Both the position numbers and the translations under genes were made by a program. Shown piece after piece: positions 38,892 to 51,285 of a stretch of DNA of 64,000 bases (position 1 is the first letter of the stretch; each line of letters opens with the position of its first letter). The notes beneath the pieces were generated by a model, which was given only the letters and a program-made list of their open reading frames with translations, did no database searches and was not told the DNA's origin. The stretch lies in the NCBI RefSeq assembly GCF_900103955.1, contig NZ_FNIL01000002.1, forward strand, positions 124,001 through 188,000, given 5' to 3'. The stretch is from Alkalicoccus daliensis (GTDB taxonomy: Bacteria > Bacillota > Bacilli > Bacillales > Salisediminibacteriaceae).

Positions 38892-39497
38892 ATGCAAGTA
38901 TATGACAGCTCAGGAGGCTTGTTTGCTTTGATGTATATCTTTATTACTATCGCTTTTGTATTATTACTAGGAATTATGCTGCTGATCCCTTCCGTATTTA
39001 CGAGAAAAATGACAACGCTGTTAGTAAGTGTCGCTTTTTTATTCTCTCTCGGGGGATACTGGGCACTGGAAAACTTTTATTGGCCTTTTGTACTCGGAAG
39101 TCTTGCACTCGTAATACTCGTTACTGCTTTTGCAGTCTCCAGATATATTCCTGAAGGAGATCCGGATGCGCTTGAGGAACCGGATGAAGTTGAAAATGAA
39201 GTGCAGGCGGAGAAAACAGCAGCGCCGCAGGAAGAGAATCAGGGAAATGATACAGCAGAAAATCCTGAAGAAGAAAACGCTGCGCTGGAGGAAGAAAATT
39301 ATTATTATGACGCTTCCAGAAAGCCATTGCAGGGAGAAGACATAGACGAACAAAGCGAAGAGGAAGATACAGAAGATCTGCCGGAACGAACGGACCGCGG
39401 AGAACATACAGAGGAGCGTGAAGGATCCCCGGAGGCTGAGGAGGAAGCACTTTCACGCAGAGAGCGTTTATTCAAACAGCTGGAAGACGAACGATAG
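38892..39497 (+). CDS. Membrane protein with long acidic tail, upstream of the pilus genes
   Basis: I do not recognise a family. The 201-residue product has three hydrophobic segments (about 14-34, 40-56, 62-84) and then a 115-residue tail made almost only of Glu, Asp, Asn, Gln, Pro and Ala, ending in a basic/acidic helix (SRRERLFKQLEDER). The tail is on the cytoplasmic side if the first helix enters from outside; orientation is uncertain. ATG 38892 has only a weak AGGAAT upstream; the TTG at 38928 or ATG at 38931 after AGGAGG may be the real start, which would remove 12 to 13 residues. It ends 11 bases before the VanW-like gene, so both probably belong to the pilus operon. Confidence 0.7.
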   Translation: MQVYDSSGGLFALMYIFITIAFVLLLGIMLLIPSVFTRKMTTLLVSVAFLFSLGGYWALENFYWPFVLGSLALVILVTAFAVSRYIPEGDPDALEEPDEVENEVQAEKTAAPQEENQGNDTAENPEEENAALEEENYYYDASRKPLQGEDIDEQSEEEDTEDLPERTDRGEHTEEREGSPEAEEEALSRRERLFKQLEDER

Positions 39498-39508: not shown

Positions 39509-41596
39509 ATGACAACAAGACAATGGTTTGCAGCGTCCTTCCTTGTAATTGCAGGAAGTGTAACTTTTATACTTATTTTTGCTTATACTGGTCTGCTTAT
39601 GTACCAGGTAGCGTTTCAGGAGCCCCGCTTTCCGGAAGAGACGAGTGTTGCCGGCGTGGACATTTCCAATATGGACCGGGAAGAAGCAATCGATGCTGTC
39701 AATATATCGATGGAAGAAAGGGAAACGGATTCTTATTATGCAGTAACCTGGTTTGATATGGAAGTGCCTGTTCCCCCGGAAGCGGTAAATTTTTCAGTGG
39801 AATCCACCATTGATGAGGTAATGGAAAGCGGCCGCACGGAAACAGATCTTGCCGTTACAGTAAATCACGGCAGATTAGAGGAAGCACTCAGTGAATTCTT
39901 TTATAATAATAATGCCGAAGGAGCAGTGAGAACAGAGGAGCTGGCTGCGGCGCTGGAAGAGGAAGCGGGAACGCTGCCTGAGGATGGCATCAGCTTAATG
40001 CTTCATCCGTATCTGATAGAAACGGAGCGCCCGCAGGAAGTTTATATTCATGGGGCTTCCCGCAGCGGGATTGTGACTCCGGGAGTAGAAGAAATTTTGG
40101 GAAGTTTAAGCAGTGTAACCATTGAAAGCAAATCTAATTTTTCTTTGCTGGAGGAGCTGGATTTATCTGCCGGTGATCTGGTGGAGGAAGAAGTACTGGC
40201 TGCAATCAGTTCTGCTGTGTTTGAAACGGTTGCTTCTACTAATTTTGCAATTGAGGAGCGCCATCAGCGTCACGCGCTGCTGGACATTGTGCCTGCCGGG
40301 TTCGATGCTCATATCGCAGTGGATGCAAAGGATTTTCAGTTTTATAATCCCAATGATTACAATTATGAATTAGAAGTAAGTACGAATGGCAGTGATTTGG
40401 AAGTCAGTTTGTACGGCTACGAATTTCCTTATAATATTGAAGTAGCTGTAGAAGAAACAGATCGTTTAGGTACGGAAAGGCGAATTATTTATACGAAAGA
40501 AGGGGAAACAGCTTCTTCTGATATGTCTTCCTTCTCAAACACAGAAACTGAGGAAGAAATTTCCGGAGACACCGTAGAAGCCGGTGAAGAAGGGTTCAGA
40601 GTAGAAACTGTCCGCACCATCTCTTATGCCGGCGATCTGGAAGAGTCTGCGGTCCAGCTACTGGCAGAGGATTATTATGCTCCTTTCCACGTGCTGGAAG
40701 AACGGGATATTAACGTCCGTGAACCGGAAGAAGAGGAGCCCGCAGATGAATTTCCATGGCAGGAAGATCAGTGGAATGGCAACGGCGGGATGGACCAGGA
40801 AGACTATGAAAACTGGATGAATAATGGCGGCGGAGACGACTTTGAAGACTGGCTGGATGAAGGAAGCCCCGGCAATTATGATCAATGGCTGGAAGAAAAC
40901 GGCCGGGAGGAAAGCAGCGGCTTTGAGTTTGACAGAAACAACGGCTTCGACTTTGGCAGCGGTACAGGTAACGGCTACCCAGGGTATGACGGAGGCCCCG
41001 GTGGCGGTTTCCCCGGGTATGATGGAGGGAACGGCCCCGGCGGAGGATTTCCAGGGTATGGCGGCAGCAATGGACCAGGAAACGGTTATCCTGGCTACGA
41101 CGGAGGCGCCGGACCGGGATTTCCGGGATATGACGGCAGCAATGGAACAGGCAGCGGTTTTCCTGGTTACGACGGAGGCAGCGGTACGCAGCCTGGCGGT
41201 TTCCCCGGGTATGATGACAGTGGAAACGGCAGCGGTTTCCCAGGATATGACGGCGGAACGGGAGAAGGATTCCCGGGCTATGATGGCGCTGGACCGGGGA
41301 GCGGCTTTCCCGGGTACGGCGGCAGTAACGGATCTGGGGGAGAATTCCCTGGGTACAACGGAGATACGGGAGAAAGCATTCCGGGCTATCATGATGGAGC
41401 CGGAACAGGAAATGGTGTGCCAGGGTACGGCGGAAGCAATGGTACCGGAGACGGCTTTCCAGGCGGTGACAGCACTGTGCCAGGAGGCTACCCAGGATAT
41501 AATGGCGACGGCATCCCGGGCTATCCTGGAGGACCAGGAACTGGAATACCGGGATATAACGGAAACGGCGAAGCTCCTCCTGTCAAAGGAGAGTAA
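39509..41596 (+). CDS. VanW-like surface protein with C-terminal PGY repeats, in the pilus operon
   Basis: A 695-residue protein anchored by one N-terminal transmembrane helix (about 8-32), so most of it is outside. The N-terminal 200 residues resemble the peptidoglycan-binding-like part of YoaR/VanW proteins. A VanW-like domain spans about 205-325 (FSLLEELDLSAG; GFDAHIAVDAKDFQFYNPND; LEVSLYGYEFPYN). After an acidic linker come three copies of a Trp motif (DYENWMNNGG, DFEDWLDEGS, NYDQWLEENG; 432-465) and then 17 units of about 8-14 residues with the core [FYIV]PGY (490-690). ATG 39509 follows AGGAGG. pilB follows after 26 bases. Function is unknown; location suggests a pilus-associated or wall-spanning factor. 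Confidence 0.8.
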   Translation: MTTRQWFAASFLVIAGSVTFILIFAYTGLLMYQVAFQEPRFPEETSVAGVDISNMDREEAIDAVNISMEERETDSYYAVTWFDMEVPVPPEAVNFSVESTIDEVMESGRTETDLAVTVNHGRLEEALSEFFYNNNAEGAVRTEELAAALEEEAGTLPEDGISLMLHPYLIETERPQEVYIHGASRSGIVTPGVEEILGSLSSVTIESKSNFSLLEELDLSAGDLVEEEVLAAISSAVFETVASTNFAIEERHQRHALLDIVPAGFDAHIAVDAKDFQFYNPNDYNYELEVSTNGSDLEVSLYGYEFPYNIEVAVEETDRLGTERRIIYTKEGETASSDMSSFSNTETEEEISGDTVEAGEEGFRVETVRTISYAGDLEESAVQLLAEDYYAPFHVLEERDINVREPEEEEPADEFPWQEDQWNGNGGMDQEDYENWMNNGGGDDFEDWLDEGSPGNYDQWLEENGREESSGFEFDRNNGFDFGSGTGNGYPGYDGGPGGGFPGYDGGNGPGGGFPGYGGSNGPGNGYPGYDGGAGPGFPGYDGSNGTGSGFPGYDGGSGTQPGGFPGYDDSGNGSGFPGYDGGTGEGFPGYDGAGPGSGFPGYGGSNGSGGEFPGYNGDTGESIPGYHDGAGTGNGVPGYGGSNGTGDGFPGGDSTVPGGYPGYNGDGIPGYPGGPGTGIPGYNGNGEAPPVKGE
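40976..41590 (+). repeat. In-gene tandem repeat encoding [FYIV]PGY units
   Basis: Seventeen degenerate units of about 24-42 bases, each encoding Phe/Tyr/Ile/Val-Pro-Gly-Tyr and a Gly/Asp/Asn/Ser-rich spacer; 16 units keep PGY and one reads PGG. The DNA is GC-richer than the surroundings. Unit lengths vary in steps of one codon, so the repeat keeps the frame. Confidence 0.9.
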
Positions 41597-41622: not shown

Positions 41623-43284
41623 ATGAAAGAAAACCGCAGGCGTCTTGGAGATATACTGGTAGAAGCGAATGTGCTGACGAAAGACCAGGTGGAAGAAACG
41701 GTAAAGAATAAAGGAAATAAAAAGCTTGGGGATGCGCTGAAAGAGGCAGGGCTTATTTCAGAAGAACAGCTGCTGGAAGTGCTGGAATTTCAGCTGAACA
41801 TTCCACGTGTTAAGCTGAAAAGCTACCCGATTGATTCGCAGCTGACAAAACTCACGGCACTCGAATTCGCAGAACGCAACAGCGTATTTCCCATCGATAA
41901 AAAAGATGGACGTCTGATAGTGGCCATGGCAGATCCGATGGATTATTTCACGCTGGACGATCTTCGGATGGCCACTGGTTTTGAAATAGAGCCGGTGATT
42001 GCCAGCTATAAAGAAATCCAGGAAGCGATTAAAACGTATTATGGAAACAAACAGGAAGTAAGCGATCTGGAAGTGGAAGACCCGGAAGAATTAAATGTAA
42101 ACACGCAGATAGCCGATGATGAAACGGATGCGCCGGTGATCAGAATGGTCAACCAGGCACTCGTGACAGGGCTGGAGAAAAAAGCGAGTGATATTCATAT
42201 CGATCCGCAGGAGACGAAAATCGTCATTCGTTACCGGATTGACGGCATTCTGTTTACGGAACGTGCAATTGCCAAACAGCACCACAATGCAATGGTAGCA
42301 AGGGTAAAGATTATGGCTAACCTGAATATTACAGAAACGCGGCTGCCGCAGGATGGTCGGGTGAAAGTGACCCTGCAGGGAACGCGTGCAGATTTACGTG
42401 TTTCTTCCATGCCAACGGTTTTCGGAGAAAAGATTGTTATCCGGATCCTTGATATGAATCAGGCGCAGATTAACCTGGAGGACCTGGATTTTAATGCGAT
42501 TAATCAAACGGTGTTCCAGGAATTAATTCACCGCCCGGGCGGCATGGTGCTGATTACCGGCCCGACCGGATCAGGGAAAACAACTACGCTTTACGCGGCG
42601 CTGAATAAAAGAAACAACGAAGAAATGAATGTAATTACTGTGGAAGATCCGGTGGAATACCAAATCGAAGGAATCAACCAGGTGCAGGTAAATCCAAAAA
42701 TCGGTTTAACTTTTGCACACGGGCTTCGGGCGATTCTCCGCCAGGATCCCGATTTAGTAATGGTAGGAGAAATAAGAGACAGTGAAACTGCAGAAATTGC
42801 TGTCCGTGCTTCTCTCACGGGTCACCTTGTACTGAGCACGATCCATACTAACAGTGCCATCGCGACAATCCCCCGGCTGATAGATATGGGCGTGGAACCG
42901 TATTTGGTCATGTCTTCCTTAAGCGGTATTGTCAGCCAGCGCCTGGTGAGAAAGATCTGCACTCATTGTAAAACCTCATATGAACCAACGAAAACAGAGC
43001 TGCAGGCGCTCGAAGAAAGAGGAATAAAAGCGGAAGTGCTCTACCGCGGGCCAGGATGCGAAAACTGTAACGAGACAGGCTACGAAGGAAGAATGGCGAT
43101 ACATGAGCTTCTTTCCATCGATGACGAAGTACGCCGGCTCGTATTAAATCAGGAAGCAGTTTCGGTGATTAAAGCATATTTGCTGGAAAAAGATATGCTT
43201 TTTTTAAAGGATGATGGGTTCTTTAAAGTGAAACAAGGCTTTACCACAATGGAGGAAGTATTCCGGGTGGCAAGTGATGATTAA
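41623..43284 (+). CDS. pilB: Type IV pilus assembly ATPase PilB
   Basis: The hexameric motor that drives pilus extension from the inner face of the membrane. The 553-residue protein has an N-terminal MshEN/GspE-N domain (RRLGDILVEANVLTKDQVEE), then the ATPase core with Walker [20 protein letters not shown], the Asp box (TVEDPVEYQIEGINQVQVNP), Walker B DPDLVMVGEIRDSETAEIA and the His box (LTGHLVLSTIHTN). A tetracysteine zinc motif is present: CTHC and, about 38 residues on, CENC. ATG 41623 follows AGGAGAGC. pilT follows 13 bases after the stop. The full-length N domain and a separate pilT distinguish it from ComGA. Confidence 0.95.
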   Translation: MKENRRRLGDILVEANVLTKDQVEETVKNKGNKKLGDALKEAGLISEEQLLEVLEFQLNIPRVKLKSYPIDSQLTKLTALEFAERNSVFPIDKKDGRLIVAMADPMDYFTLDDLRMATGFEIEPVIASYKEIQEAIKTYYGNKQEVSDLEVEDPEELNVNTQIADDETDAPVIRMVNQALVTGLEKKASDIHIDPQETKIVIRYRIDGILFTERAIAKQHHNAMVARVKIMANLNITETRLPQDGRVKVTLQGTRADLRVSSMPTVFGEKIVIRILDMNQAQINLEDLDFNAINQTVFQELIHRPGGMVLITGPTGSGKTTTLYAALNKRNNEEMNVITVEDPVEYQIEGINQVQVNPKIGLTFAHGLRAILRQDPDLVMVGEIRDSETAEIAVRASLTGHLVLSTIHTNSAIATIPRLIDMGVEPYLVMSSLSGIVSQRLVRKICTHCKTSYEPTKTELQALEERGIKAEVLYRGPGCENCNETGYEGRMAIHELLSIDDEVRRLVLNQEAVSVIKAYLLEKDMLFLKDDGFFKVKQGFTTMEEVFRVASDD

Positions 43285-43297
43285 TGGAGGGATACAG

Positions 43298-44329
43298 ATG
43301 GGGCAGGAAGTAGATAATATGCTTACAGAAGCTTTTCATATGGGAGCTTCTGATATTCATTTAACTGTGGGGACTCCGCCCGCACTGCGTCTGAACGGCG
43401 AACTGACGAGAAGAGAAAAGGCTGCTTTAAAACCTGCTGACACTGAAGCGGTCGCGAAAGAAATGATTCCAAAAGCAATGTGGAGTACATTTGAAAAACG
43501 GGGAGAACTTGATTTTTCCTACGCAGTCCGGGGACTGTCCCGATTCCGGGTAAACGCTTACTACCAGCGTTCGTGCATAAGCCTTGCGATCCGGGTCGTT
43601 CCTACGCACATCCCTTCTATCGAAGATTTAAAAATGCCGGAGATATTGAAGTTAATCGCAGGAAAGCCGCAGGGACTCGTGCTAGTGACCGGTCCGACCG
43701 GCTCAGGCAAGTCGACAACGCTTGCGGCAATGATCCGCTATATGAACGAGGAAATGAACAGACATATTATTACGCTGGAAGATCCGATCGAATATTTACA
43801 TACGCATAATAAATCTTTAATTGATCAGCGGGAAATCGGGTTTGATACCCAAAGCTTTGCCAACGGGCTCCGCGCAGCGCTGCGGCAGGATCCGGACGTG
43901 ATACTTGTCGGGGAAATGAGAGATCTGGAAACGATCAGTACAGCGATTACCGCAGCAGAAACCGGCCATCTCGTGCTGGGAACGCTGCACACCTCTGACG
44001 CGCCTTCTACGATTGACCGGGTTATCGATGTATTTCCGCCGGAACAGCAGGACCAGATTCGTATCCAGCTCTCTGCGGTTCTGAACGCCGTGATTTCCCA
44101 GCGCCTCCTGCGAACACCGGATGGAAGCGGGAGAAGGGCGGCAACCGAAATTTTAATTAATAACAGCGCCGTAAAAAACCTAATCAGAAACGAAAAAATC
44201 CATCAGATTCCAAGTGTGATCCAGACGGGAAAAGCACAGGGAATGCACACGATGGAAATGTCTATAAAACAGCTGCTGCAGCAGGGAGCAGTAAATCAGG
44301 AAGCTGCTGCTTATTTTCTTACAGATTAA
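43298..44329 (+). CDS. pilT: Type IV pilus retraction ATPase PilT
   Basis: The motor that depolymerises pili and powers twitching. At 343 residues it is short and lacks the GspE N-terminal domain and the zinc motif. Seen: MGASDIHLTVGTPPALRLNG at the N terminus, Walker A GPTGSGKSTTLAAMIRYMN, Asp box TLEDPIEYLH, Walker B DPDVILVGEMRDLET, His box ETGHLVLGTLHTSDA and the PilT-specific AVKNLIRNEKIHQIPSVIQT (AIRNLIRE-type motif needed for retraction). The start is ATG 43298 after AATGGAGGG; an in-frame ATG inside the end of pilB is rejected. Its presence means these pili are likely retractile. Confidence 0.95.
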   Translation: MGQEVDNMLTEAFHMGASDIHLTVGTPPALRLNGELTRREKAALKPADTEAVAKEMIPKAMWSTFEKRGELDFSYAVRGLSRFRVNAYYQRSCISLAIRVVPTHIPSIEDLKMPEILKLIAGKPQGLVLVTGPTGSGKSTTLAAMIRYMNEEMNRHIITLEDPIEYLHTHNKSLIDQREIGFDTQSFANGLRAALRQDPDVILVGEMRDLETISTAITAAETGHLVLGTLHTSDAPSTIDRVIDVFPPEQQDQIRIQLSAVLNAVISQRLLRTPDGSGRRAATEILINNSAVKNLIRNEKIHQIPSVIQTGKAQGMHTMEMSIKQLLQQGAVNQEAAAYFLTD

Positions 44330-44344
44330 CAGGAGGGGAACCGC

Positions 44345-45550
44345 ATGCCATTTTATCAGTACTACGGAAGGGACGGCGGCGGAGTGCCTGTCCAGGGAAA
44401 AATAAAAGGAGCCACAGAAACAGACATCCGCGCAAAACTCGAACGAAAACAGATTTATCCGAAAGAAATAAATCTGCTGGAAGGCTGGCTGTATCAGGAT
44501 ATTAAGCTGTTTCAGAAAGCCAGGCCGAAAGACCTCGTGCTTTTTTTACGGCAGATGGCAACGCTGCTGCAGGCAGGAATTTCTTTAGTTGAAAGTATCC
44601 AGCTGCTGGCAGACCAAATGCAGAATAAAATATGGAAGGACACGCTGCGAACAATGGAGGAAGATATTCGCGGAGGCACTCCCTTTTCTGCCGCAGCTGA
44701 AAAACACCGCCACATGTTTCCTGCTCTAATGACGAACATGATTAAAGCGGGAGAAGCAGCGGGAGACCTGGATGAAGTCATGGACCGGCTTGCTTTTTAT
44801 TACGAGAAGCAGTACCGGCTCCGTCAGAAAGTGATTTCCTCTGTTTCCTATCCGATTATTTTAAGTGTTGTCGCCTTTGCCGTTGTCATCTTTCTTCTGG
44901 CGGTGGTAGTACCGACGTTTGTCGACATGTTCGCAAGCTTTGGCTCGGACCTTCCCTGGATTACCAACCTGGTGCTGCAGACAGGAATGATCGTCACAGA
45001 ACTTTACTGGCTGGTGTTTCCTCTGATTATATTGATCGCAGCAGCAGCTGGTGCGGTGAAGAAAAACCCGCAGGCAAAATATTATCTGGATTATGCCCTG
45101 CTCCGCCTTCCGGTACTCGGCAGCGTGCTTCAAAAGGCAGCACTTGCAAGAATGAGCCGCACGTGGAGCTCTCTTTTTGCCAGTTCCGTGCCCGTGCTGC
45201 ACGCAACCTCCATCGTAGAGCGGGTCGTAGGAAACGAGGTATTGGCAAGAGTGATCCGCGACTCCCGGCAGTCACTGGAAAGAGGAGAGTCATTAACCAC
45301 CCCGATGAAAAGCCACTGGATTTTTCCCCCGCTTGTCACACAGATGGTGAACGTGGGAGAAAAAACAGGAACGCTGGATCAGATGTTTGGAAAAATAGCT
45401 GATTTTTACGAGCAGGAAGTGGACCAGGCGACAGATCAAATGAAAAGCTTGCTGGAACCTGCACTTATAGTACTTATGTCAGTGGTTGTTGGGATAATCG
45501 TCGCAGCTATTGCCATTCCAATGTTCGAAGTTTTTGAAGTTATACAGTAA
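44345..45550 (+). CDS. pilC: Type IV pilus inner-membrane platform protein PilC
   Basis: A 401-residue polytopic membrane protein of the GspF/PilC family that couples the ATPases to the growing pilus. It contains two related cytoplasmic GspF domains (FLRQMATLLQAGISLVESIQ; FASSVPVLHATSIVERVVGN) and membrane helices at about 170-192, 217-240 and 370-395. The signature IKAGEAAGDLDEVMDRLAFY and the matching VNVGEKTGTLDQMFGKIADF are clear. ATG 44345 follows AGGAGGGG, 15 bases after pilT. A gap of about 300 bases with its own promoter separates it from the prepilin gene. Confidence 0.95.
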   Translation: MPFYQYYGRDGGGVPVQGKIKGATETDIRAKLERKQIYPKEINLLEGWLYQDIKLFQKARPKDLVLFLRQMATLLQAGISLVESIQLLADQMQNKIWKDTLRTMEEDIRGGTPFSAAAEKHRHMFPALMTNMIKAGEAAGDLDEVMDRLAFYYEKQYRLRQKVISSVSYPIILSVVAFAVVIFLLAVVVPTFVDMFASFGSDLPWITNLVLQTGMIVTELYWLVFPLIILIAAAAGAVKKNPQAKYYLDYALLRLPVLGSVLQKAALARMSRTWSSLFASSVPVLHATSIVERVVGNEVLARVIRDSRQSLERGESLTTPMKSHWIFPPLVTQMVNVGEKTGTLDQMFGKIADFYEQEVDQATDQMKSLLEPALIVLMSVVVGIIVAAIAIPMFEVFEVIQ

Positions 45551-45624: not shown

Positions 45625-45857
45625 AGTAAGAAATCATGATGAAATAGGTAGTTTGTACCTGTCGTTCAGCTCTAATTACTTATACACTTTAGAGAACATA
45701 GTATGATAAGAGCGATGAAATTCCTATTGTATCTGGGCACTTGATAGGAGAGGAGCGAGTAGTGCAACCGGCTTATTCCATGATGATGGGGGAAGTCGGT
45801 TTTTTTGTACTTATTTTTATATTGTTCACTATTTTGAAAAAAGAGGAGAGATGGAAA

Positions 45858-46319
45858 ATGAGAAACATGAAACAGAAAATGCAGAAGCTGTTAAAACAGC
45901 AAAAGGGTTTCACGCTCGTTGAGTTACTCGCAGTAATCGTCATCTTAGGAATCATCGCAGCAATTGCAATCCCGGCGATTGGTGGGATTATTGACAACTC
46001 GAAGAAAGATGCACACATTGCCAATGCAGAGGCACTAGTTAGTGCAGCGAGGCTTGCCGTGGTGAGTGATGAAAGTATTTTTGACGGGGATGGAACTGTA
46101 ACTGATGCGGTGTTAGTAAGTAATGGATATTTAGAGTCAGAATTAGAGGATCCAGATGGTGGCAGTTATAGTCCTGCAGAAGTGACATATGTAGATGGAA
46201 ATTATGAAGTTAATCTAAATAATGGAACAAGAAAAGCTTTAACAGGTAATATAGAAAATATTCGTAGTGCTGGTAGAAGTTACTTTGATGCAACTCCAGC
46301 CTCCGGAGATGGGAATTAA
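45858..46319 (+). CDS. Type IV major prepilin
   Basis: A 153-residue pilin precursor. The leader is short and basic (MRNMKQKMQKLLKQQKG); the prepilin peptidase site is G|FTLVELLAVIVILGIIAA with Glu at mature position 5, followed by AIPAIGGIIDNSKKDAHIAN, the classical N-terminal helix. The mature C-terminal domain of about 100 residues is acidic, rich in Gly, Asn and Asp, and has no Cys pair. The start is ATG 45858, seven bases after GAGGAGAG; upstream in-frame ATGs would put an extra hydrophobic segment before the leader and are rejected. It is the only prepilin in the locus, so minor pilins must be elsewhere. A probable terminator lies 260 bases downstream, after repeat copy A. Confidence 0.92.
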   Translation: MRNMKQKMQKLLKQQKGFTLVELLAVIVILGIIAAIAIPAIGGIIDNSKKDAHIANAEALVSAARLAVVSDESIFDGDGTVTDAVLVSNGYLESELEDPDGGSYSPAEVTYVDGNYEVNLNNGTRKALTGNIENIRSAGRSYFDATPASGDGN

Positions 46320-46847: not shown

Positions 46848-47014
46848 TTCTGATTACCAAAGTAAAATGATTGAAACGAAAGACGGCGACTCCAGCGGTG
46901 ATGAAGCGAAGTCTGAAAATCCATTCTGACAGCGCAGAGCGCTGGAGGAATTAGTTGAAGACAAGCACCGCGGAAAGCGTCCGTCTGAAGTGCAATCATT
47001 CACCTTAACCAAAC
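46848..47014 (+). repeat. Structured intergenic repeat, copy B
   Basis: A 167-base unit starting TTCTGATTACCAAAG and ending TTAACCAAAC. Outer arms AGACGG (46881) and CCGTCT (46981) can pair; the centre holds CAGCGC-AGA-GCGCTG. It differs from copy C at only five positions. The rest of the region 46320-47707 between prepilin and pilD, apart from the repeats and the terminator, is AT-rich and holds no gene. Confidence 0.9.
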
Positions 47015-47291
47015 GCACTATTTATACAATCCTAATCAACTTGAGTCAATTATTTTTTAAAGATAAAATTGCTCAAAGTATTAAAAAAACAAAAGGTCAT
47101 TCTGTATAATCACCTGTTATTGTCATAAGAAACTGATCTGGAAGGATTCAGCTAATTTCTATCAACGGCCTCCGGAATGAAATAAATATTCCACTTCTAT
47201 TTCTGTTATAAAAGTAGATTATTTTAAGTGAAGTTGCTTTTATTAATTTATACCCCGTTGTTTGTACTGATCATTCCTTTGAAACTCTACA

Positions 47292-47458
47292 TTCTGATTA
47301 CCAAAGTAAAATGATTGAAACGAAAGACGGCGACTCCTACGGTGATGAAGCGAAGTCTGAAAATCCATTCTGACAGCGCAGAGCGCAGGAAGAATTAGTT
47401 GAAGACAAGCACCGCGGAAAGCGTCCGTCTGAAGTGAAATCATTCACCTTAACCAAAC
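47292..47458 (+). repeat. Structured intergenic repeat, copy C
   Basis: A 167-base direct copy of B, 444 bases downstream, with five differences by my count. Two of them alter the central stem (GCGCTGGAGG becomes GCGCAGGAAG). Open frames on its minus strand occur in both copies and are by-products of the repeat. Confidence 0.9.
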
Positions 47459-47707
47459 TTACAATACAAGCAGTCCCAATCATCTTAAATCAATTAAATT
47501 CTTAATTACTAGGTTGAAAAACCCCTTCAGAAAAATTAATAACAGAAGTGCAGCATCCTCCCTAAAAAACCATTCCTTTCTACCTGCACAAAACCGCGTT
47601 TCTTCCTGTCAATTTTTAGAGAAAATGGTTTCTTCCCTCCGGCAAAAAGACTATAATAAAACATAAGTGTAAAAGAATACAGAATGTTCGGTTTGGAGCT
47701 GGCGGGG

Positions 47708-48484
47708 ATGGACATCTTTTGGTACATATATTTTTTTCTTGCCGGGCTGGTGCTCGGATCTTTTTATAACGTCGTCGGTCTGCGGCTGCCGCAGAAAGAA
47801 TCACTCGTTCATCCGCGCTCGCACTGCACCGCTTGCGGCCACACACTTTCACCCTGGGAACTGATCCCGGTAGTATCCTACATACTGCTGCGAGGGAAAT
47901 GCAGATCCTGCGGGGAACAAGTCTCCCTTATTTATCCGATGTTCGAACTTGCCTCTGGAGTTCTATTTGTGTGGAGCTTTCACGTGTTCGGGTTTTCTGC
48001 AGAAACAATCGTCGCAGTGTTATTTGCTTCACTATTGATAATAATCAGCGTAAGCGATCTTTCCTACCGCCTCATCCTGGATAAAGTGCTGCTCTTTTTT
48101 CTCCTGCCGCTGCTTCTGCTTCGCTTAACTGCCGCGCCGCTAGATCCTTGGTGGGATGCTTTTGCAGGCGGGGCAGGGGGCTTTTTATTACTGCTGCTGG
48201 TGGCAGTTGTTTCCAAGGGAGGCATGGGCGGAGGCGATATTAAGCTTTACGGGGTTATAGGTCTGGTGCTGGGCTTATCGAATATGTTCCTCTCTTTATT
48301 TCTGGCTGCAGCCATCGGTCTGCTTGCTGGAGTGATCGGTATGATCTGGAAAGGCTGGGGACGAAAAACGGAGGTGCCGTTCGGTCCGTTTATTGCCATA
48401 GGGGCCCTTGCTGCCTATTTTATTGGAGAAGACCTTATTCATTTTTATCTGGGCATACTTACAGGACTGATAAACTTATTTTAA
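47708..48484 (+). CDS. pilD: Prepilin peptidase/N-methyltransferase PilD (ComC-like)
   Basis: An integral membrane aspartyl protease that removes the leader of type IV prepilins and methylates the new N terminus. The N-terminal domain has the zinc cysteines CTACG and CRSCG (about residues 41-76); the catalytic aspartates are in ISVSDLSYRLILDK and GGMGGGDIKLYG. About seven to eight membrane helices are visible. The start is taken as ATG 47708 (MDIFWYIYFFLAGLVLGSFY), as in ComC; an in-frame ATG at 47684 would add eight residues. Neither start has a perfect ribosome site. It stands at the position of B. subtilis comC and is followed 19 bases later by pilM. Confidence 0.92.
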   Translation: MDIFWYIYFFLAGLVLGSFYNVVGLRLPQKESLVHPRSHCTACGHTLSPWELIPVVSYILLRGKCRSCGEQVSLIYPMFELASGVLFVWSFHVFGFSAETIVAVLFASLLIIISVSDLSYRLILDKVLLFFLLPLLLLRLTAAPLDPWWDAFAGGAGGFLLLLLVAVVSKGGMGGGDIKLYGVIGLVLGLSNMFLSLFLAAAIGLLAGVIGMIWKGWGRKTEVPFGPFIAIGALAAYFIGEDLIHFYLGILTGLINLF

Positions 48485-48503: not shown

Positions 48504-49487
48504 ATGGCAATTCAACTAGGAAATAAAACGCAGCATGCGCTTCTTCTTTCAGACCACGTAATTCGCTACGCGCGGGTAAAAGGCCGGAAGCTGGACGGCG
48601 TGGAGATAATAGAGGAGCGTTATCTGCCGCAGGGGGTTTTTGCGCAGGGAGAGGTAAAAGAGGTGGAAACTTTGCTTACGATTCTTTCTGAATGTGTGGA
48701 AAAATGGAAGCTGCGCAATCAAAAAGTGGTATTTTCCATCCCGGATTCACTCTCACTTGTACGCCGGCACGAAGTTCCTTTAAATATTGCGGAAGCAAGC
48801 ATTACCGGCCATTTATATATGGAGCTGGGAGAATCCCTTCATCTGCCGCTCGAGCAGCCGGTGTTTGACTGGCATGAAATCGGCCGTACGGCAGAATACC
48901 GGGATCTGCTTATTTTTGCGGCTCCGGAACCGGCTGTCACCACGCTCGCCCGTTTAATGCGCGAGGTGCGCTTAAAGCCGGTCGCAGCTGATATTTCTCC
49001 ATTAAGTCTGTATCGTCTTTACGATAAAATGTACAATACGGAAGAAAAAATACATACGATGTTTCTGCAGATGGCGCCTTCTTATATGCAGGTGAGTATT
49101 TTTGAAGAAGAGCTTCCGTTAGTGATCCGGACGATGAATTTTCAGCTGGATGCTTCTCAGTGGCAGGTGACTGAGGATGCATCGGAGCCGCTTGTCTGGC
49201 AGGGGGCCGAGGAAGATATCCGTTCCTCCTGGCAGGATACGCTGGAGGAGCTCAGCAAGCTGCTCAATTTTTATCAGTACAATTACCAGCAGGGGAAAGC
49301 AAGGGTGGATAAAATCGTCGTTACCGGGGATCATCCTTATGCAGGCCATTTCGTAAAAGATGTAAAACAGCGGCTTGAGCTGCCGGTAAGCACGTTTGCG
49401 GAAAGCGACTGGGTTACCAAAGATAACGAAGAGATACCTTCAAAATATTATGCAGTCATCGGGCTCGCGCTGAAAAAAGAGGTGTAA
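48504..49487 (+). CDS. pilM: Type IV pilus assembly protein PilM
   Basis: A 327-residue cytoplasmic actin-like ATP-binding protein that links the assembly motor to the membrane proteins PilN and PilO. It begins with an actin-like strand pattern (ALLLSDHVIRYARVKGRKLD), followed by VVFSIPDSLSLVRRHEVPLN, the region LIFAAPEPAVTTLARLMREV and the C-terminal phosphate-2-like VDKIVVTGDHPYAGHF. The family is recognised more by position and pattern than by strong motifs. It starts at ATG 48504 after GAAAAGGAAG, 19 bases beyond pilD, and ends two bases before pilN. Confidence 0.85.
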   Translation: MAIQLGNKTQHALLLSDHVIRYARVKGRKLDGVEIIEERYLPQGVFAQGEVKEVETLLTILSECVEKWKLRNQKVVFSIPDSLSLVRRHEVPLNIAEASITGHLYMELGESLHLPLEQPVFDWHEIGRTAEYRDLLIFAAPEPAVTTLARLMREVRLKPVAADISPLSLYRLYDKMYNTEEKIHTMFLQMAPSYMQVSIFEEELPLVIRTMNFQLDASQWQVTEDASEPLVWQGAEEDIRSSWQDTLEELSKLLNFYQYNYQQGKARVDKIVVTGDHPYAGHFVKDVKQRLELPVSTFAESDWVTKDNEEIPSKYYAVIGLALKKEV

Positions 49488-49489
49488 GG

Positions 49490-50401
49490 ATGCCGATAGA
49501 AATAAATTTACTTCCTGGAAAAAAACGAAGAACGAGAACGCTTCCGATGCTGCTTTTACTCATTGGTGTCCTTGGTTTAATCGGGCTTCTTGCCATTATC
49601 TCCATTGGTTCTTCCATGGAAAACGAACGGCGAATGGCGGAAGAGGAACTGGCGGAAGCCCGGATTGCATCCGCTGAGCTTGAAAATGAGCTGGAGGAGC
49701 TGCAGGAAAGCGATATTCTGCTCCTGAATACCGTAATCGGGGAGCTGGAGGAGAAGGTAGTCCCGGCATCTTCTGTACTAATGGATATTGTTTCAAGGAT
49801 GCCGGCGGACAGCGGGCTGACGATGTTTGAGTATGAATATCCTGATCACATCACGCTCGAAATACTTTTAATGAGCATGCCGGATCTTGCTCGATTTCAG
49901 CATGAACTCGAGGACTCTCCGTTAATTCAGCAGGCAGAAATTGATATCGTGATGGGAGAAGCAATTCTCGAAGAGCTGGATGAAAATATCTTCTGGTATG
50001 AAGAATATCTTCCGCAGTATTTTGCTACGATCGTGTTGGTGCTGCATCCTGACGCCATCCGTGCATACGAACAGGAAGAAACAGAATTATCTATTCCAAG
50101 AGAGCTGGAGGAGCAGGAAGGTTCATTTGATTTCCCGGAGGAAAATGAGGAAACAGAAGAGCTGGAAGAACCGGCCGGATCACCATTTGATAATGAGAAT
50201 GCTGAAAACAATGAAGAAGAAAGTTTCCAGCAGGCACCTGGGGATAATGTGGAAGAAGACACGCCGGTAAACCGAGAAGACGATGCAAATGATCAAGAGG
50301 GCTTTTCAGATAATAATGACTGGGCAGAGGAAGAGATAGAAGAGGAAGACTTCGACTTCAATTGGGAAGATAATGAAGAAAATGAGGTGGAGCTGCCGTG
50401 A
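49490..50401 (+). CDS. pilN: Type IV pilus assembly protein PilN
   Basis: A bitopic membrane protein whose N-terminal motif EINLLPGKKR binds PilM. One helix follows (MLLLLIGVLGLIGLLAIISI), then a coiled-coil region (AEEELAEARIASAELENELE) and a ferredoxin-like region to about residue 195. Beyond that comes a 105-residue tail of almost only Glu, Asp, Asn, Pro and Gly, absent from typical PilN (about 180-200 aa), which makes the total 303 residues. It starts two bases after pilM at ATG 49490 and overlaps pilO by four bases (GTGA). The tail would be outside the membrane, between membrane and wall. Confidence 0.85.
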   Translation: MPIEINLLPGKKRRTRTLPMLLLLIGVLGLIGLLAIISIGSSMENERRMAEEELAEARIASAELENELEELQESDILLLNTVIGELEEKVVPASSVLMDIVSRMPADSGLTMFEYEYPDHITLEILLMSMPDLARFQHELEDSPLIQQAEIDIVMGEAILEELDENIFWYEEYLPQYFATIVLVLHPDAIRAYEQEETELSIPRELEEQEGSFDFPEENEETEELEEPAGSPFDNENAENNEEESFQQAPGDNVEEDTPVNREDDANDQEGFSDNNDWAEEEIEEEDFDFNWEDNEENEVELP

Positions 50402-51285
50402 CAGAAAAACAGAAGCAAATATCTATTATCGGAGGCACTTCTTTTCTGATCATTCTTGCGCTGGTCCTCTTATTTTTCACCATGGTAAATCCACATATAC
50501 AGGCAGCGAATCAGGCGGGGCAGCAGCTGGAGGAAGAGGAAGAGCATCAGGTGCGCCTGGAACAGCAGCTTCAGGAAAAAGCAGCGGAAAATGCGGAGCA
50601 GCCGGAAAGCACAACAGATCAGCAGCGCCGGCTTCCCGTCGTAAGGCTGACAGATCAGTTTATCCTTGATTTAAGCATGGCGGAGGAGCTTGCAGACATT
50701 CGGATTATGGATCTGCAGATGAGTTATGATCATCCGGTATATCAATACGAAACTGTAGAAGTAACGCCTTCAGAGGATATTCCGGACAGTGGGACAACCG
50801 TTAATGAAGTGCGTGAAGAAGACGAGGACGAACCGAATGATCCGGACGAAATGAATGAAGAAGATATGAACGAGCAGGATGTCTCGGAAACGGACGAAGA
50901 GATAGAGCTCGAGGAAACAGAAGCTGCGAGTGATCTCGAGGAACGACAGGCAGAAAGTGACGAAGAACGGACACGGGGTGCGCTGCAGCAGGAGCAGATG
51001 GAAGGTTTGAGCAAACAGACCGCAACGATTGAATTGAAAGTAAACAATTTCAGTTCTCTCGGACGCTTTTTAATAGAACTGGATTCTCTGCAGCGGTTTG
51101 TGAATATTGAGTCGATTCTTTTTCTCGGAGAAGAGGAAGACCGTATTTTTGACGGCCAGACAGATATTTTTTATGAAGTCCAGGTATCTTCTTTCTATTA
51201 TCCGGAACTGGAGCATCTGGAATTCGAAGCTCCGGTCGTGGACTACCCGGATGACGGGGAAAACACTTCACCATTTCTTAATTAA
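50398..51285 (+). CDS. pilO: Type IV pilus assembly protein PilO
   Basis: A 295-residue bitopic membrane protein: a short cytoplasmic start (TEKQKQISI), one helix (FLIILALVLLFFTMVNPHIQ), a coiled coil, then a PilO-type ferredoxin-like C-terminal domain (TIELKVNNFSSLGRFLIELD; FYEVQVSSFYYPEL). An acidic insertion of about 75 residues (about 125-200, rich in Glu and Asp) splits the outer region. The start is GTG 50398 overlapping the pilN stop (GTGA). It closes the pilus cluster; a terminator-like hairpin follows. No secretin or PilP gene is present, as expected for a one-membrane cell. Confidence 0.82.
   Translation: MTEKQKQISIIGGTSFLIILALVLLFFTMVNPHIQAANQAGQQLEEEEEHQVRLEQQLQEKAAENAEQPESTTDQQRRLPVVRLTDQFILDLSMAEELADIRIMDLQMSYDHPVYQYETVEVTPSEDIPDSGTTVNEVREEDEDEPNDPDEMNEEDMNEQDVSETDEEIELEETEAASDLEERQAESDEERTRGALQQEQMEGLSKQTATIELKVNNFSSLGRFLIELDSLQRFVNIESILFLGEEEDRIFDGQTDIFYEVQVSSFYYPELEHLEFEAPVVDYPDDGENTSPFLN

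Follow-up and report, generated by a model that had tools for sequence, protein, structure and literature searches.

A 64,000-nucleotide stretch of the Alkalicoccus daliensis genome (the window; contig NZ_FNIL01000002.1, positions 124,001 to 188,000) contains a type IV pilus (pil) operon in which the gene directly upstream of pilB encodes a protein with a VanW-like domain. Genes of this family occupy the same place in most pil operons examined across the order, and their products look like pseudoenzymes, catalytically dead relatives of L,D-transpeptidases. The reading we favor, to which we give about an even chance, is that the protein is a dedicated type IV pilus operon component of Bacillales, a membrane-anchored and apparently dead descendant of PG4-VanW-G5 proteins that docks the pilus platform to the wall. 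In 2024 the VanW domain was recognized as an L,D-transpeptidase with a Cys-His triad (PMC12729407, PMC11986978). Some VanW proteins lack this activity, and their roles are stated to be unknown (PMC12729407). The gene and its parts are listed below.

39509..41596, forward strand: type IV pilus-linked pseudo-VanW/G5 protein, 695 amino acids (open reading frame (ORF); Pfam VanW 38.1 bits; own-genome family profile E 3.2e-138, the window protein being itself a row of that profile)
39515..39613, forward strand: N-terminal membrane helix, residues 3-35 (hydrophobic stretch; helix in the AlphaFold2 model)
39626..40030, forward strand: PG4-like, putative peptidoglycan-binding domain, residues about 40-174
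40202..40414, forward strand: second half of VanW, residues 232-302, without GGGxCQ and ERxxHS (Pfam, alignment, motif counts)
40427..40714, forward strand: G5-like domain, residues 307-402
40802..40891, forward strand: three Trp motifs, residues 432-461 (motif scan)
40976..41557, forward strand: 16 [FYIV]PGY units in a Gly/Asn/Asp/Ser-rich tail, residues 490-683 (motif scan; this species only)
41576..41593, forward strand: C-terminal motif PPVKGE with K693, the sole Lys of the tail (sequence; lysine counts)

The ORF starts with ATG and ends 26 bases before pilB (41623), in agreement with the original prediction, which was made from the sequence alone. Profiles and the predicted structure give the domain order as membrane helix, PG4-like domain, partial VanW, G5-like domain and variable tail. 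The proposed membrane anchor was supported by the hydrophobic N-terminus and the helix at residues 3-35, and the domains that follow are predicted to lie outside the cell. The proposed VanW-like domain stood in part. The PF04294 match scores well above the curated cut-off of 27 bits but covers profile positions 60-130 of 130 only, not the whole domain. In all 28 pil-linked copies from the window's own genome and 39 related genomes, the match begins at position 35 or later. Pfam gave no PG4 match in the window protein, and PG4 was absent among the families listed for 26 members of the pil family. The PG4-like assignment comes instead from profile-profile comparison and structure, which agree. 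The profile match between PG4-VanW-G5 proteins and the pil family spans 344 columns. Foldseek alone returned no match to the predicted structure at E<=0.001, and no fold clearly matched the VanW part of the model. The three [DN][YF]xxW[ML] motifs were found as described, at residues 432, 444 and 456.

The window's own genome and 39 related genomes contain two classes of PF04294 proteins, 16 canonical copies (E below 1e-40) and 28 partial copies, one of which is the window protein. None of the 16 canonical copies has a pil gene in the stretch read. All 28 partial copies are in pil-gene stretches, 23 with pilB and 5 in reduced operons. A family profile was built from 26 members (alignment A1; L035 and L036 were left out) and searched against 199 genomes of the order. 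The family is present at E<=1e-30 in 127 genomes, a strong pilT in 146 and both in 123. The rest comprise 4 genomes with the family only, 23 with pilT only and 49 with neither. The Fisher p value for co-occurrence is 5e-24, although kinship of the genomes makes it overstate their independence. Another 19 genomes with matches weaker than 1e-30 were kept out of the 127. These matches were taken as canonical VanW because those listed span little beyond its second half.

Position within the operon is also conserved. In pilT genomes, 122/124 copies are on the strand of pilT and 1.7-7.0 kb upstream of it, and the median distance of 1.9 kb roughly equals pilB and a short tail combined. Contig ends explain the other two copies: one shares its contig with a pilB that is cut by the contig end, and the second lies 0.7 kb from a contig end. 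The next ORF of >300 amino acids begins within 600 bases in 57/71 copies (median 15 bases). One genome (G010) has the gene by tblastn though the Pfam search missed it; the G011 locus was left out of the reading. At another locus (L106 in G177) two VanW copies, separated by about 4 kb, lie upstream of pilT, and each ends in KGY. At the level of the class, 3/4 genomes of family f48 have a strong pilT and 0/4 have a match to the pil family at 1e-20 among the matches listed. A genome of another order (G384) has the gene 2.0 kb upstream of pilT. Co-location of VanW and pili, first proposed from the window, is a conserved feature of the order and not a one-off. Homologs were not found mostly away from pilus genes, though four genomes lack pilB, pilT and pilC at the locus. 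No description of a link between VanW and type IV pili was found in the open-licence papers that made up the literature searched, as the original prediction had supposed.

The GGGxCQ loop is missing from the pil family in the alignment. GG.CQ was found in 0/69 pil-family copies, compared with GGGxCQ in 13/13 canonical copies, which were not chosen by the cysteine. No Cys at all is present in 37/69 pil-family copies, and the window protein is also Cys-free. The second motif, [EQ]RxxHS, occurs in 11/13 canonical copies, while ERxxH occurs in 1/56 parsed pil copies (15/71 could not be parsed). The window protein reads ERHQRH at this motif, with the His shifted one residue later. From our own reading of the alignment and a review, GGGxCQ and [EQ]RxxHS appear to hold the catalytic Cys and His, respectively. 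Because the GGxCQ cysteine motif is absent from every copy counted, the pil-linked VanW protein looks like a pseudoenzyme.

A candidate source of the family is found among phylum-level relatives, whose PG4-VanW-G5 proteins have the same order of PG4, VanW and G5 as the pil family and compare with LdtCd4 and LdtCd5 of Clostridioides difficile (PMC12729407). Unlike the pil family they carry GGGxCQ and ERxxH, though the set was chosen by GGGxCQ itself and so gives no independent count of it. Two of their loci were read, and in both the gene for the catalytic relative is outside the pil operon, flanked by ORFs that we read as ruvX- and mltG-like. Among the matches listed, phylum-level relatives outside Bacilli have at least 20 VanW-G5 copies on the pilT contig within 100 kb, all of them on the strand of pilT and 12-95 kb upstream of it, and at least 13 further pairs beyond 100 kb on mixed strands. 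These pair counts come from part of the matches listed and are not a rate. Genes including aro genes intervene between the VanW-G5 copy and pilT in two loci read. A cautious reading is that the distant linkage reflects synteny of origin and is not functional evidence. These relatives are probably Clostridia, but this is a guess.

The mechanism that we propose begins with the extracellular PG4-like, pseudo-VanW and G5-like domains, which would most likely bind peptidoglycan. In this way the platform of PilM, PilN and PilO would be kept close against the thick wall. The tail, which is acidic and probably disordered, may extend into or through the wall, where a conserved lysine motif at its C-terminal end could offer a docking site. 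The original prediction had offered a wall-spanning conduit, an anchor or an adhesin for the pilus. Anchoring fits the domains, but no evidence was found for a conduit or an adhesin.

Several loci bear on which part of the machine the protein would serve. In four genomes (G006, G009, G014 and G019) the locus lacks pilB, pilT and pilC, and the rest of the genome contains no strong pilT either; the search for pilC was confined to the locus. They retain a full-length VanW ORF with its KG end, pilD and pilN. PilO was matched by tblastn in G006 and G014 and is represented by a PilO-like next ORF in G009; PilM was not found in G006. In the G009/G019 pair, the ratio of nonsynonymous to synonymous substitution rates was 0.30 for VanW and 0.26 for folC, which indicates that the gene is still in use. 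Two further genomes have damaged operons. In G075 (L173 8370-9699) a shortened VanW gene overlaps a pilM remnant in a deletion scar and pilN- and pilO-like genes remain, while G034 has no pilB and only a pilT fragment.

That the gene persists without pilB, pilT and pilC speaks against a role in pilus extension alone and against the favored reading in its purely pilus form. Since VanW, pilD and pilN are kept together, these genomes point to PilN/PilO and the wall, rather than the motors, as partners. A more specific version can be framed for monoderm Bacillales. An L,D-transpeptidase would have become a dead peptidoglycan receptor of the PilM/N/O platform and not of the motors, with the lysine motif of its disordered tail captured in the wall or by the platform, and the sub-complex would be kept without pilB, pilT and pilC, perhaps for the competence (ComG) pilus. 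Taken whole, this claim is tentative, and we think it has appreciably less than an even chance.

The same genomes can be used to argue that the protein has little to do with pili. It might be a general cell-wall or shape factor that serves wall maintenance and is merely housed in the pil operon, with maf, radC, mreB and min downstream. VanW is kept and constrained where the motor genes are gone from the locus, the catalytic relative lies by ruvX- and mltG-like genes in two phylum-level loci, and the window itself runs on into mre and min genes. However, a strong pilT is missing from only 4/127 family genomes, all four of which have operon remains, and the gene is placed upstream of pilB and not with mre. 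We consider a wall factor unlikely, at perhaps one chance in five.

The VanW protein is not essential to all such pili, as the family is missing from 23/146 pilT genomes. The stretch upstream of pilB was read in 20/23 pilT-only genomes (one for only 2.8 kb, to a contig end) and contained no family ORF; G145 and G215 were left out of this reading. In pilT-only G190, tblastn over the upstream stretch gave no family match. In one pil operon without the VanW protein, a 511-amino acid ORF (L083 4023-5558) lies upstream of pilB; it begins like a pilin and contains a long internal repeat. In the VanW-less operon of G110, the first 420 residues of a 502-amino acid PilO-like protein match SPOR (22 bits vs 21), and SPOR is above cut-off near pilT in VanW-less G102, G166, G141, G036, G108 and G190. 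A SPOR-PilO was considered as a clean swap for the VanW protein and ruled out because SPOR is also near pilT in the VanW-bearing genomes G099 (28.1 bits), G080 (21.4) and G033 (20.7, or 21.6 with neighbors). Wall contact in the monoderm pilus platforms of the order seems to be made by modules of more than one kind.

The tail of the window protein was the most striking part of the original prediction, which counted 17 [FYIV]PGY units. The regular array was recovered with 16 exact units, the remaining one being FPGG. In 2000 shuffles of the tail, [FYIV]PGY occurred 0.14 times on average and never more than twice, and the DNA of the array is only weakly tandem (two short TRF rows). Pro-Gly-Tyr with Gly-rich spacers is shared with elastin- and silk-like repeats, but among the species examined the likeness is confined to this one. 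PGY is present in the tail of 1/69 family sequences and 0/68 other tails, and relatives of the same genus have other repeats, such as GSGNGS-, DFDNGNGAD- or Trp-rich ones. The PGY repeats were therefore ruled out as the key feature. Another reading is an adhesin or matrix protein, associated with the pilus or the surface, whose elastin-like repeat tail associates with itself; the regular units and the G5 domains found in surface proteins such as Aap and SasG would be in keeping with it. The tails, though, vary in composition and in length (0-287 amino acids, median 70; 287 in the window), and what is conserved is the C-terminal lysine, which makes an adhesin improbable.

The tail sequence is not conserved, but its end is. 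Lys is present within the last six residues in 59/69 copies, compared with 121/347 other ORFs of the same loci, and KG within the last nine residues in 31/69 compared with 13/347. These 69-copy counts left out four duplicate loci (L074-L077) and two fragments of L035. In the window's own family (f1), 17/17 copies finish with KG and a further 1-3 residues, as in NPIKGY or PPVKGE. Shuffling within tails predicts Lys in a mean of 11/65 copies, whereas 56/65 were observed. The terminal Lys is missing in 10/69 copies. It is at position -1 in 20/69 and at -3 in 21/69, with the window Lys at -3. The simplest reading of these sequences is that a short docking motif ends a probably disordered tether.

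The alternative is that the tail Lys is covalently bound to peptidoglycan, as in OutB or Braun's lipoprotein, bolting the platform to the wall. OutB of the type II secretion system also combines an N-terminal anchor with a C-terminal Lys, and L,D-transpeptidases fix it to peptidoglycan through that residue (PMC12274547). The copies with Lys at -1 or -3 and the YkuD enzymes found in 6/10 genomes searched are compatible with this. However, neither the window genome nor three congeners gave a YkuD match or any VanW match besides the pil-linked copy, yet the f1 copies keep KG, which makes a known L,D-transpeptidase unlikely as the rule. Furthermore, the window Lys is not at -1. Non-covalent docking is more likely than covalent attachment by a known L,D-transpeptidase, and the OutB analogy was kept as a low rival with a small chance of being correct. 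VanW homology also suggests a working L,D-transpeptidase by which the wall is opened or remodeled for the pilus. This is the least credible possibility, given that GG.CQ is missing in 69/69 copies, ERxxH is found in a single parsed copy and the window protein has no Cys.

The gene order in the window is folC, a 201-amino acid membrane protein, the VanW-like gene, pilB, pilT, pilC, pilin, pilD, pilM and pilN-/pilO-like genes, followed by maf, radC, mre and min. Neighbors without a family match were named by reading of the ORFs.

38892..39497, forward strand: upstream membrane protein, 201 amino acids, acidic tail ending RRxxLFxx[LM]E (ORF; no family match above cut-off)
41623..43284, forward strand: pilB, with T2SSE and MshEN domains (Pfam)
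43274..44329, forward strand: pilT (ORF; served as search query)
44345..45550, forward strand: pilC (ORF; relatives at the same place; named from sequence, no family search)
45700..45782, forward strand: c-di-GMP-II riboswitch before the pilin (Rfam RF01786, 62.9 bits vs 53.5)
45858..46319, forward strand: type IV pilin, N_methyl (PF07963, 36.8 bits)
47684..48484, forward strand: pilD, prepilin peptidase (ORF named from sequence; relatives)
48504..49487, forward strand: pilM (PF11104, 45.5 bits)
49490..50401, forward strand: pilN-like, acidic tail (position and sequence; no Pfam match above cut-off)
50398..51285, forward strand: pilO-like, no SPOR match (position and sequence; no Pfam match above cut-off)

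The RRxxLFxx[LM]E end of the upstream membrane protein is shared by the window and five relatives. Other families have a membrane protein plus a PRC-barrel protein at this position. The c-di-GMP-II riboswitch class, which responds to cyclic di-GMP (c-di-GMP), is known to regulate a pilin in C. difficile. By Rfam it is found just downstream of pilC in 11/18 related loci searched, including two without the VanW protein (L139, L145), and in none of three loci without pilB, pilT and pilC (L170, L176, L178). In several relatives, though not in the window, folC and the VanW gene are separated by a gene for a GGDEF diguanylate cyclase, identified by Pfam in L178 (3140-4819) and by sequence likeness in L046, L059 and L176. 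The GGDEF genes near the locus and the MshEN domain of PilB point to c-di-GMP control. Two 214-base direct repeats, 90% identical, lie between pilin and pilD (46848-47061 and 47292-47505). The element has 19 matches in its own genome, the query counted, and may be a dispersed intergenic repeat. In L054 (9910-10189) and L178 (11086-11386), group II intron RNA is matched near the pil locus.

The pil-linked VanW protein is a concrete and widely conserved candidate for anchoring type IV pili in the thick monoderm wall, and it would be a pilus-dedicated pseudo-L,D-transpeptidase; no paper describing such a protein was found among the open-licence literature searched. It may give a role to part of the VanW proteins that lack transpeptidase activity (cf. 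PMC12729407). 'vanW' in resistance-gene lists may sometimes denote a pilus-linked pseudoenzyme.

Proteins with comparable tasks are found in other systems. PilP, TsaP and FimV are envelope-side accessory proteins that link the pilus platform and the wall, but in diderms and with folds that differ from the VanW protein. OutB (GspB) of Dickeya is an inner-membrane scaffold of a related machine, the kind of role proposed for the window protein, and likewise has a linker and a C-terminal Lys (PMC12274547). It differs in having a PF16537 domain, in its diderm setting, in the Lys at its very end and in needing L,D-transpeptidases, none of which were found in the window genome. For monoderm pili, a 2019 review could offer on wall passage and anchoring only speculation about PilO, the large PilO of Streptococcus sanguinis being the proposed wall contact of the platform (PMC6916266). 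That protein and the SPOR-matching PilO-like protein of G110 resemble the arrangement suggested here in providing a proposed or apparent wall contact for a monoderm platform. In both the wall module is fused to PilO, whereas in the window it is a separate protein.
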